From positions 1-45,277 of the forward strand of contig JAKAHY010000001.1 in the NCBI GenBank assembly GCA_021814695.1: 45,277 nucleotides of DNA. Reading direction: 5' to 3'. The position numbers were made by a program, and so were the translations under genes. The DNA is from a bacterium (GTDB taxonomy: Bacteria > Patescibacteriota > Minisyncoccia > UBA6257 > JAGOQP01). Below, piece by piece: positions 31,900 to 35,091 of the stretch; the first letter of the stretch is position 1; every line of letters begins with the position of its first letter. Below the pieces are notes generated by a model. The model saw nothing but the letters and a program-made list of their open reading frames with translations. It was not told the DNA's origin and ran no database searches.

Positions 31900-32256
31900 A
31901 TGATACTACCTTCTTATTCTTCTTATTATTGGACTCAGCACGCCAAAGCCAAAATGGCTTATTACAAGTTGTCCGAAAATCGCGTTCGGAGGGTTATTAA
32001 AAGTCCGCTGAGAATTGAGGAGGGGGTTGCGCCCGATACGATTGCATATATGCAGCCGGTTTCTTATAAAACCAGAAATGGCCAAAAGATTTGGAGCCAG
32101 GAGTTATGGGTAATGATTGCCCAAGATAATAAAAAAGATGCAAAGCATAAGATACGGGTTATTTCGGCCTGGAGATATCCCGGAATGACCAAACCGCAGG
32201 CAGCTCTTCCGAAGGCGATTTTGGATGAAATATCTCAAGCACTTGAAACAATTTGA
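31900..32256 (+). CDS. Small conserved-looking protein, DUF4258-like in plan
   Basis: A protein of 118 residues. It starts with WTQHAKAKMAYYKLSENRVRRVIKSP, the His-Ala-x-x-(R/K)-M pattern that opens DUF4258-type and RelE-like toxin folds, then a strand region (QELWVMIAQDNKKD) and the motif VISAWRYPGMTKPQAALP. I recall similar proteins in CPR genomes, unverified. No antitoxin gene is adjacent. Function unknown; it could be an RNA- or DNA-acting enzyme, but no catalytic residues are proven. Confidence 0.75.
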   Translation: MILPSYSSYYWTQHAKAKMAYYKLSENRVRRVIKSPLRIEEGVAPDTIAYMQPVSYKTRNGQKIWSQELWVMIAQDNKKDAKHKIRVISAWRYPGMTKPQAALPKAILDEISQALETI

Positions 32257-32339
32257 CGGTTACATCGTTTTGATATGTACGATAATCAAATCAAATAATG
32301 AATATCAGATTAATTACAATAAAAAAGCATTATTTTACT

Positions 32340-32449
32340 CACCTCGGAGTCCTTTTGCCCAGGTGATGTTTTGGCTGAATAATATAAACTAAAAACATCA
32401 AAAAATCCCCTAGGCAAGATGGCGCCGGGGGATTTTTAGCGCCATCTTG
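32340..32449 (+). ncRNA. Compact structured RNA region with interlocked stems
   Basis: A 110-base region with at least four pairings: CACCT/AGGTG (32340, 32361), GATGTTTT/AAAACATC (32365, 32392), AAAAATCCCC/GGGGATTTTT (32401, 32428) and CAAGATGGCGC/GCGCCATCTTG (32415, 32439). The last two interlock as an H-type pseudoknot or as mutually exclusive stems. TTGCCCAGG at 32355 can also pair with CCTAGGCAA at 32409, disrupting both. No known riboswitch class is recognised. It may be the 3' end of the 31900 transcript, a small RNA or a leader of the 32565 operon. Confidence 0.6.
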
Positions 32450-32564: not shown

Positions 32565-32879
32565 ATGATAGCTCAAACACCTGAAGTCCACGGAATTATT
32601 TCATCTCTAATTCTCTTGATTCCGATATTTGGATTTTCTACTAATTCCATATGTGGGGGCGGTTCCCGATTTTCTAGAAATGAAAGTGATAAGCCAAAAG
32701 ATAATCAGAATGAGATTGACGAAATTAAAAAGGAGATTGAGTTTATTGGAGGAAAAATTAGTGGCATTCAGCAGCGCTATGGGATATTTGATGAGTATAT
32801 GCGCGACTCACTGGATTCTTTATATGAAAAATATAATCAACTCAAAGATAAATTGGCGAAGTTGCTGAGGAAACAATAA
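32565..32879 (+). CDS. Small coiled-coil protein coupled to a radical SAM enzyme
   Basis: 104 residues from the ATG at 32565 (MIAQTPEVHGIISSLILLIP). GAGAGGAG upstream is a strong Shine-Dalgarno sequence; the 35 extra codons of the ORF track begin on the -35 box. A hydrophobic segment (about residues 10-25) leads to TNSICGGGSRFSR, then a highly charged helix of about 60 residues with heptad-like spacing (NEIDEIKKEIEFIGGKISG...YEKYNQLKDKLAKLLRKQ). The stop overlaps the next start (TAATG), so it is coupled to the radical SAM gene and may be its substrate or partner; this is inference. Confidence 0.75.
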   Translation: MIAQTPEVHGIISSLILLIPIFGFSTNSICGGGSRFSRNESDKPKDNQNEIDEIKKEIEFIGGKISGIQQRYGIFDEYMRDSLDSLYEKYNQLKDKLAKLLRKQ

Positions 32880-33835
32880 TGAATGGGCCGAAATTTGCTT
32901 CCTGGGAATCAACGTTGAGATGCGATCTTAAATGTATCCATTGCGGATTATGTGCCGGGCCTGAATGTACAAATCTTCGCGGCCCGGAGCTTTCCACCGA
33001 GGAGGCTAAAGGAATGTTTGATCAGCTGGTCTCTCTTGGGGTGTCGAATTTGGTTATTTCCGGAGGAGAATTCACGACTCGTGGCGATTGTAAAGAACTT
33101 CTTGCCTTAGCTCTTGAACGGTTTGTGATGGTTCGCCAAATAAGCAACGGACTTTACGGAAAATATTTCTTTAAGCGGTTTGAGCCTATGGATAACTTGA
33201 ATCGTTATATTCTGTCTCTAAGCCTGGATGGCCTTGAACGAACACACGATGCAATAAGAAAAATGAGCGGTTCGTTTTGGCGGGTTATTGAAATATTAAA
33301 TGCAGATTCTCCAATCCAGAGGACGGTTATTACTACAGTTATGAGGGAAAATTTTCAGGAATTGGAAGATGTGTTCCAATTACTTATGAAATTATCTGTT
33401 CCGGTGTGGGCGATTCAATTAGGACTGCCGGAGGGAAGGATGAGCTCGGCTTCATTTATCGGTGAGGAAAAAATTAGAAGATTGGCTGATACGATTCTTG
33501 ATTGGCAAATGCGGGCCGAAGATGTTATGGAAGTCATTCCCGACGATTGTTTCGGCTATAGGCATTTAATGCGTTTCAAAAACCACTGGAAAGGATGCCA
33601 AGCGGGTAAAAATTTAATCACAATCCTTTCCAACGGCGATGTCACCGGATGCCCGACAACGTTTCATTCAATATGCGGCAATATTCGTGAAAATACATTG
33701 GAAGAAATTTGGAATGGGGATAAGATGAATAATTTCCGTTCCGAACTCCCAAGATGTTCTTCCTGCGACAATAAAATATGCCAAGGAGGATGCCGGGCAG
33801 TTAATCACGTATTCGGAAAACAATTTTGTTTTTAG
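32879..33835 (+). CDS. Radical SAM/SPASM-domain enzyme
   Basis: A protein of 318 residues. The radical SAM CxxxCxxC is Cys15, Cys19 and Cys22; LVISGGEFTTRGD is the GGE-type SAM-binding motif. The C-terminal SPASM domain has the seven-Cys pattern: C-x12-G-x4-C (GCQAGKNL...GDVTGC), then CSSCDNKICQGGC, with a last Cys two residues from the end, enough for two auxiliary Fe-S clusters. SPASM enzymes mature ribosomal peptides or protein side chains. No peptide-recognition (RRE) domain is visible. Translationally coupled to the 104-residue protein. The target is unknown. Confidence 0.88.
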   Translation: MNGPKFASWESTLRCDLKCIHCGLCAGPECTNLRGPELSTEEAKGMFDQLVSLGVSNLVISGGEFTTRGDCKELLALALERFVMVRQISNGLYGKYFFKRFEPMDNLNRYILSLSLDGLERTHDAIRKMSGSFWRVIEILNADSPIQRTVITTVMRENFQELEDVFQLLMKLSVPVWAIQLGLPEGRMSSASFIGEEKIRRLADTILDWQMRAEDVMEVIPDDCFGYRHLMRFKNHWKGCQAGKNLITILSNGDVTGCPTTFHSICGNIRENTLEEIWNGDKMNNFRSELPRCSSCDNKICQGGCRAVNHVFGKQFCF

Positions 33836-33837
33836 GT

Positions 33838-33862
33838 GAGGCGGAAATATCCGCCTCTTTTT
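33838..33862 (+). terminator. Intrinsic terminator of the radical SAM operon
   Basis: GAGGCGG-AAATAT-CCGCCTC, then TTTTT. Confidence 0.9.
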
Positions 33863-33894: not shown

Positions 33895-35091
33895 ATGAAT
33901 AATATGGCAAAAGACAATTTATCGGAAAAAATAGACGAAATTTTAAGCCGGGGAGTAAATGAGGTTATTGATCAAAAGCACCTCAAGGAAAAGCTTCTTA
34001 GCGGAAAAAAATTGAGAATAAAGCTTGGAATAGACCCGACTAGCCCCAATTTGCATTTAGGACGTTCGGTGGCGTTTTTGAAACTGCGTGATTTTCAGGA
34101 GTTGGGCCATCAAATAGTACTTATTATCGGAGATTTCACCGGAGTAATCGGAGACACATCTGACAAGGAAAGTGAGAGGCCGATGCTTGATGATGAGACT
34201 ATCAAAGCCAATATGAAAACTTATGCCGAACAGGCGGGAAAAATTTTAGATATAAAAAAGGTGGAACTCCATCGTAATTCGGAATGGCTTGCAAAACTGA
34301 CTTATAAAGACATTGCAAAGCAAGCGGATATGTTTTCATTGTCGGAGTTTATCGCCAGAGAAAATATAGCCAAAAGAATTAAAGCCCAAAAACGGGTATC
34401 GTTGCGGGAAGTTTTATATCCTCTGATGCAGGGTTATGATAGCGTAGAAATAAAATCGGACGTTGAACTTGGAGGAACTGACCAGAGATTTAATTTGCTT
34501 GCCGGTCGGGAAATCCAGAGCCATTATAAGCAGGAACCGCAGGATATTATGATGCTAAACCTCATTGAGGGCCTTGATGGCCGGAAAATGAGCTCCAGTT
34601 GGGGCAATACCGTCAATTTGACTGATGCTCCCAATGACATATTCGGTAAAATTATGAAGGTGGGAGATTCGTTGATTATTAAATATTTTATTCATTGCAC
34701 GCGAGTGCCGATGGAAAAAGTAAAAGAATACGAAAAACGTCTTAAAAAAGGAGACAATCCGCGCGACGTCAAAATGGATTTGGCGCGTGAAATTACTTCT
34801 ATGTATTGGGGCTCAAAAAAAGCCGATGAGGCACAAAAGTTTTTTGTAATGGCATTCCAAAAACACGAAATACCCGAAAACATTCCGGAAATAAAAGCTA
34901 AAAAGGGAGTAACTTATTTTGATGTGCTTGCTGAATCCGGCCAATTTAGTAGCAAGTCAGAAATTTCCAGGCTATTTGAGCAGGGCGCTGTAAATATGCT
35001 TGAACCCGAAGAAAAGAATATCGGCAGAGAAGATAAAGTTGAGGGAGGAACTATCAAGGTTGGAAAGACTAAATTTTTCAGAATTAAATAA
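33895..35091 (+). CDS. tyrS: Tyrosyl-tRNA synthetase
   Basis: A protein of 398 residues; an ATG three codons downstream (33904) is an alternative start. The class I HIGH motif reads HLGR at residues 54-57 in GIDPTSPNLHLGRS, the KMSKS loop reads KMSSS (GRKMSSSWGN), and ELGGTDQRFNLLAGR is the tyrosine-site segment. The C-terminal S4-like domain has SKSEISRLFEQGAVN. It charges tRNA-Tyr. It follows the radical SAM terminator with a short AT-rich leader. Confidence 0.95.
   Translation: MNNMAKDNLSEKIDEILSRGVNEVIDQKHLKEKLLSGKKLRIKLGIDPTSPNLHLGRSVAFLKLRDFQELGHQIVLIIGDFTGVIGDTSDKESERPMLDDETIKANMKTYAEQAGKILDIKKVELHRNSEWLAKLTYKDIAKQADMFSLSEFIARENIAKRIKAQKRVSLREVLYPLMQGYDSVEIKSDVELGGTDQRFNLLAGREIQSHYKQEPQDIMMLNLIEGLDGRKMSSSWGNTVNLTDAPNDIFGKIMKVGDSLIIKYFIHCTRVPMEKVKEYEKRLKKGDNPRDVKMDLAREITSMYWGSKKADEAQKFFVMAFQKHEIPENIPEIKAKKGVTYFDVLAESGQFSSKSEISRLFEQGAVNMLEPEEKNIGREDKVEGGTIKVGKTKFFRIK

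Follow-up and report, generated by a model that had tools for sequence, protein, structure and literature searches.

What do two interlocked inverted repeats do in front of a radical SAM gene in a bacterium with a genome of 748 kb (16 contigs, 99% complete)? The repeats lie in a stretch of 45,277 nucleotides, analysed as a whole and hereafter called the window, and the original prediction described them as a candidate structured RNA ahead of a radical SAM operon. Their position agrees with this description, as the segment precedes a two-gene unit encoding a small peptide and a radical SAM/SPASM enzyme. Based on folding models and a comparison with three related loci, we consider it likely that the segment attenuates transcription in a translation-coupled manner, as an attenuator of the leader-peptide type (trp/phe/his) placed before the peptide/radical-SAM operon, and it probably senses Tyr/Phe shortage. 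The leader is composed of the following parts:

32259..32286, + strand: candidate promoter GTTACA-16-GATAAT (9/12 matches, weak), with the ATG of an upstream ORF (uORF) 11 nt downstream
32298..32366, + strand: leader uORF encoding MNIRLITIKKHYFTHLGVLLPR, whose stop codon (32364-32366) lies inside the antiterminator 5' arm
32328..32342, + strand: proposed control codons CAT TAT TTT ACT CAC (H Y F T H), with counterpart Phe and Tyr codons at a similar spacing in the relatives
32339..32366, + strand: segment 1:2 hairpin TCACCT/AGGTGA, which would block the antiterminator
32342..32430, + strand: segment 2:3 antiterminator, in which TTTTGCC, AGG and TGATGTTTT pair with AAAACATCA, CCT and GGCAAGA, plus outer pairs
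32401..32438, + strand: segment 3:4 intrinsic terminator hairpin with U-run (-19.9 kcal/mol)
32415..32449, + strand: 11-bp stem CAAGATGGCGC/GCGCCATCTTG, past the U-run and specific to the window genome

Both predicted main stems were located exactly, the 10-bp stem as AAAAATCCCC (32401-32410) and GGGGATTTTT (32428-32437) with 17 nt between the arms, and the 11-bp stem with its arms at 32415-32425 and 32439-32449, 13 nt apart. Among 3,000 dinucleotide-shuffled versions of the 308-nt intergenic region, a perfect inverted repeat of at least 10 bp was seen in 51 and one of at least 11 bp in 13, and the predicted interlocking of two long perfect stems (10 + 11 bp) was borne out, an interlocked pair of at least 10 bp each occurring in 0/3000. 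Folding against shuffles gave z-scores of -4.2 for the terminator hairpin and -4.4 for the 11-bp hairpin. The upstream pairings of the original prediction were found as well: the 9-bp pairing of TGATGTTTT (32364-32372) with AAAACATCA (32392-32400) exactly, and CACCT/AGGTG as TCACCT (32339-32344) with AGGTGA (32361-32366). TTGCC/GGCAA and AGG/CCT belong to the lowest-energy fold of the whole region, a long hairpin pairing TTTTGCC/AGG/TGATGTTTT with AAAACATCA/CCT/GGCAAGA and containing neither main stem. An H-type pseudoknot of the two full main stems was considered and rejected on geometry: the loops between them would be 4, 2, and 1 nt against helices of 10-11 bp, too short to span the opposing helices, and both stems therefore cannot form in full at once. 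Judged from the sequence, a pseudoknot of two full stems is neither required nor sterically plausible; the 10-bp stem is an intrinsic terminator.

The original prediction had missed the uORF (32298..32366), which gives the competing pairings a likely sensor in the ribosome that translates it. In the window, the Phe control codon lies 21 nt and the last His codon 15 nt upstream of TTGCC. Of the four uORFs described below, this one is the weakest, with only two F/W/Y codons, and no Shine-Dalgarno sequence was seen for it. A second candidate promoter (32270-32299) would place the transcript start after the uORF ATG. As a side observation, the uORF stop codon overlaps a second ATG (TGATG) that opens an 8-codon ORF, MFWLNNIN (window 32364-32392), with Phe and Trp codons within the antiterminator, which could reflect reinitiation or chance.

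The peptide + radical SAM/SPASM pair occurs in 4/244 genomes of the order, and the lineage is one of small genomes (0.5-1.4 Mb), which to judge by these sizes is probably Patescibacteria/CPR. The leader peptides and the peptide/radical-SAM coordinates are:

Window: leader peptide MNIRLITIKKHYFTHLGVLLPR; pair at 32565-33835
G167, locus L167: uORF 1333-1410, MIILNDTYFFGFTYLHQREAGLPLK; pair at 1492-2693
G172, locus L168 (minus strand): uORF 1855-1787 (-), MIRINSYFFGFAYSSKERQVCV; pair at 464-1695
G069, locus L254: uORF 197-262, MNLICNTTYWYFNYTPTKRDA; pair at 387-1629

Our computational comparison shows that the loci share uORFs, their spacing, competing structures, and the layout as a whole: a promoter-like site, a uORF of 21-25 codons, antiterminator, terminator, peptide gene, and radical SAM gene follow in the same order in 4/4 independent genomic settings. 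The aromatic runs HYFTH (window), TYFFGFTY, SYFFGFAY, and TYWYFNY align on Y..F[TAN][YH], and in all four the antiterminator arm is preceded by the Phe codon at 20-21 nt and by the last Tyr/His codon (Y, Y, Y, H) at 14-15 nt, a codon-to-arm spacing (14-21 nt) of about one ribosome footprint. The stop codon lies inside the antiterminator 5' arm in 4/4 leaders. The relatives have better promoters than the window, 6-16 nt ahead of the ATG; with the ATG at this distance past the -10 box (11 nt in the window), the transcripts would therefore be leaderless or nearly so. In shuffled sequences, a uORF of that size that equalled the aromatic codon count (in 8) appeared at frequencies of 0.0022, 0.0002, and 0.0033 for the relatives; for the window the frequency was 0.072 (FWY) or 0.010 (FWYH, the addition of His being a post hoc choice). 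The window alone is thus no proof of a uORF, and the set of four makes the case fairly well. In a side observation, two reading frames of the G167 leader (L167 1333-1410) are open, MIILNDTYFFGFTYLHQREAGLPLK and MTHIFLALLTSIKERQVCL; the latter ends much like the G172 leader peptide, and the two leaders differ by one base in length.

The competing structures are likewise kept, mostly in different sequences. In G167, GAGGCAGGTTTG..TTTAAAGT pairs with ACTTTGAA..CAAACCCGCCTC and rivals the terminator CGCCTCC/GGAGGCG TTTTT; G172 has the same build (TTTGAAGT/ACTTCGAA) with one pair changed on both sides from A-T to G-C, the single double change that a check for compensatory changes found between these two alignable leaders. 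G172 also has a counterpart of the 1:2 hairpin (TTTCGGCTTT/AAAGCCGAAA in L168) over its Phe codons. In G069, GAGGGACGCCTAATT stands against AATTACGCGCCCCTC, with the terminator GCCCC/GGGGC TTTTTT. The window and G069 share almost nothing in sequence with G167 and G172, and the layout is conserved nonetheless. A DNA homology search with the window leader in 60 relatives returned short chance matches only. In all four loci a strong structure competes with the terminator, the antiterminator and the terminator share an arm, and the two are mutually exclusive. The suggestion that switching between pairings could control termination is therefore supported, as at every locus an upstream arm and the terminator compete for the terminator 5' arm.

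We then modelled this switching in silico by folding the RNA that a ribosome at a given position leaves free in each of the four leaders. For a ribosome at the stop codon, the mean probability of the terminator pairs was 0.94, 0.99, 0.99, and 0.995; for one stalled with the first control codon in the A site it was 0.02-0.05 in the window, 0.000 in G167, and 0.000-0.001 in G069. G172 switches only partly in the fold model (0.24-0.58), its free RNA adopting both the terminator and a strong 1:2 hairpin that spans the Phe codons. A 1:2 hairpin over the control codons beside a terminator is the textbook attenuator arrangement. The advantage of the antiterminator in the window, G167, and G069 was matched by 0-4 of 1,000 upstream shuffles set against the fixed terminator. 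In the window, with a 15-nt footprint, the terminator is the favoured structure when the ribosome stalls at Y12 or later, except in folds that contain the 11-bp stem.

We infer that the uORF is translated, that ribosomes stall on it, and which amino acids are sensed. The polymerase would produce a leader with a short uORF bearing aromatic codons (Tyr/Phe, here also His). When charged tRNA is plentiful, the ribosome would reach the stop codon (32364-32366) and cover the antiterminator 5' arm, upon which the terminator (32401-32437) would form and transcription would end. Under a shortage of charged Tyr- or Phe-tRNA, it would stall on HYFTH, about 15 nt or more before the arm, leaving the antiterminator (32342-32430) to form and capture the terminator 5' arm, and the polymerase would continue into the peptide and radical-SAM genes. 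Pairing of the antiterminator arm TTGCCCAGG with its partner CCTAGGCAA would favour read-through.

A riboswitch-like leader that binds a metabolite or a protein could use the same antiterminator/terminator pair, whose alternation in itself needs no ribosome, and would suit the identity of the stretch AAAGAGAGGCAGGTTTGC in G167 and G172; yet the uORFs would then be chance ORFs, and aromatic uORFs at a fixed spacing in 4/4 leaders, control codons that differ synonymously between G167 and G172 (TAT/TAC, TTT/TTC), four leaders that, unlike an aptamer, have no common sequence core, and the lack of any Rfam riboswitch match make this reading unlikely. The original prediction had left a choice between a riboswitch, an attenuator, and a small RNA with a pseudoknot; of these the attenuator is supported, with the ribosome on the uORF, rather than a ligand-binding fold, as the likely sensor. 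The uORF peptide might instead be a nascent-chain sensor, arrested by a small molecule or by the mature peptide in the manner of TnaC or ErmCL and independently of codon starvation, which would account for a conserved part that is short and patterned (F-[TAN]-[YH]) and at a fixed distance from the structure; we hold this to be quite improbable, as the sequence around the motif varies widely and the control residues vary within the aromatics (F/W/Y/H), a pattern that fits codon sensing, with the caveat that such mixed identities fit the sensing of a single amino acid poorly. That the segment is no more than a plain terminator for the upstream 118-aa gene, accompanied by inverted repeats unrelated to it and without regulation, is highly improbable: although the 10-bp stem alone has a common terminator shape (AAAAATCCCC..GGGGATTTTT occurs in at least 120 viral-contig stretches) and sits downstream of that gene, three relatives carry the same leader in other neighbourhoods without the 118-aa gene (L167, L168, L254) and the strong competing structure is found in each.

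At gathering scores, Rfam reported a tRNA only in the whole window and no T-box or riboswitch in the leader; at relaxed thresholds the window leader matched no known family, the eukaryotic microRNA matches merely reflecting a long hairpin. For the G172 leader the best match was RF01859 (Phe_leader), full-length (28.8 bits, E 0.006 on 351 nt; E 0.11 on 6.4 kb comprising two loci), which also matched G167 at 23.2 bits, both far short of the gathering threshold of 55 bits, and with no significant + strand match in the window. The leader works like a phe/trp/his attenuator and is not a member of RF01859 by the family threshold. The earlier statement that it belongs to no known class is thus true at the Rfam cut-off, whereas the mechanism class is old and two relatives match Phe_leader below threshold. 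With Phe_leader it has in common an aromatic-rich peptide, a 1:2 hairpin over the Phe codons, and a 3:4 terminator; RF01859, however, is the enterobacterial pheA/pheST attenuator, whereas the target here is a peptide/radical-SAM operon and not Phe biosynthesis or pheST, and the uORF here begins a few nucleotides from the predicted transcript start. The trp, his, and leu attenuators likewise have control codons in segment 1, a stop codon by segment 2, and an antiterminator set against a terminator, but other control codons and targets. T-box leaders also use an amino-acid-responsive antiterminator/terminator pair, and tyrS lies downstream in the window, but there is no Rfam T-box match and the leader follows the peptide operon rather than tyrS. 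Leader-peptide attenuators are known mainly from genes of amino-acid biosynthesis and of aminoacyl-tRNA synthetases, before which they stand. While the mechanism class is a known one, the interest lies in the target and the lineage; the open-access literature (subscription journals being outside the scope) gave no report of leader-peptide attenuation with Patescibacteria/CPR or with radical SAM. Partial terminators are known from within RiPP operons, for example that of bottromycin (PMC7113386), where they follow the precursor gene and determine its dose; here the terminator precedes the precursor gene and is coupled to a uORF.

The 11-bp stem has no counterpart in the other three leaders (G167, G172, G069). 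Its 3' arm (32439-32449) starts at or past the expected polymerase stop, and it therefore cannot join the decision at the U-run. In folds of the read-through transcript it pairs with what had been the terminator loop and is compatible with a shorter antiterminator, and it may stabilise the read-through form or have no function. The end of a repeat or mobile element was rejected as a source, since BLAST of the 304-nt region against its own genome (E<=10) gave only short matches expected by chance, and the 11-bp stem had no match among them.

The operon behind the leader consists of the following:

32565..32879, + strand: gene of a 104-aa peptide, a putative RiPP precursor with the motif FSTNSICGGGS
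32879..33835, + strand: radical SAM/SPASM protein, a putative peptide maturase, 55-58% identical in three relatives
33838..33862, + strand: terminator GAGGCGGAAATATCCGCCTC TTTTT, which ends the operon ahead of tyrS

We infer that the 104-aa peptide is matured by the radical SAM/SPASM enzyme. In 4/4 loci a small peptide with a conserved core motif adjoins the maturase, as is expected of a RiPP operon; the peptides share [FY]STxS[IL][TC]G[GA]GS in the N-terminal half, and their C-terminus is charged and probably helical. SkfB, the only PDB relative of the enzyme, and other SPASM maturases have the same radical SAM + SPASM architecture beside a small peptide gene, whereas the window enzyme scores under every NCBIfam equivalog cut-off and the 104-aa peptide matches no Pfam or NCBIfam model. 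From its gene content the unit is a putative RiPP operon, and the pair is apparently undescribed. No such pair was found in samples of the class, the phylum, and a second order, and the operon is therefore rare. A single-sequence scan of genome contigs for the radical SAM gene found nothing, and an alignment-based scan recovered a single family member, L172, which is the G167 locus once more, the other matches being distant radical SAM proteins with no such peptide in the DNA around them; viral contigs yielded no member of the family.

The operon is an insertion at its site. In most family relatives (e.g., G001, G005, G010), the 118-aa gene stands directly before tyrS, whereas in the window 1.6 kb (leader, peptide gene, radical SAM/SPASM gene, and the terminator at 33838) lie between them; close relatives show an empty site, and the radical SAM gene is absent from both congeners. 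The 118-aa protein (window 31900-32256) has no Pfam or NCBIfam match and is present in 13/13 family genomes searched. The neighbourhoods of the relatives differ, with G167 beside gyrB-like and ribosomal protein genes and G172 behind a murG-like gene (named from translations), which fits a mobile or repeatedly lost unit. A wider reading, which we offer tentatively and hold to be possible but doubtful, is that a rare, apparently mobile peptide-maturation operon of small-genome bacteria (probably Patescibacteria/CPR) is switched on by aromatic shortage via a near-leaderless uORF, such that cells dependent on a host produce a modified peptide when amino acids run out, with the genome-specific 11-bp stem adding a control step after read-through. 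A leader-peptide attenuator before this operon would tell when small-genome cells make the peptide, namely at aromatic amino-acid shortage, and would provide a handle on an uncharacterised natural product and a testable element from a poorly studied field of RNA regulation.

The tyrS gene of the window (33895-35091) is 65-72% identical to those of the family members G010, G003, G005, and G009 and ~41% identical to those of its own genus, and this difference suggests that tyrS was replaced next to the inserted operon. A link of the leader to tyrS was considered and rejected, as the leader goes with the peptide operon, which ends in a terminator ahead of tyrS.
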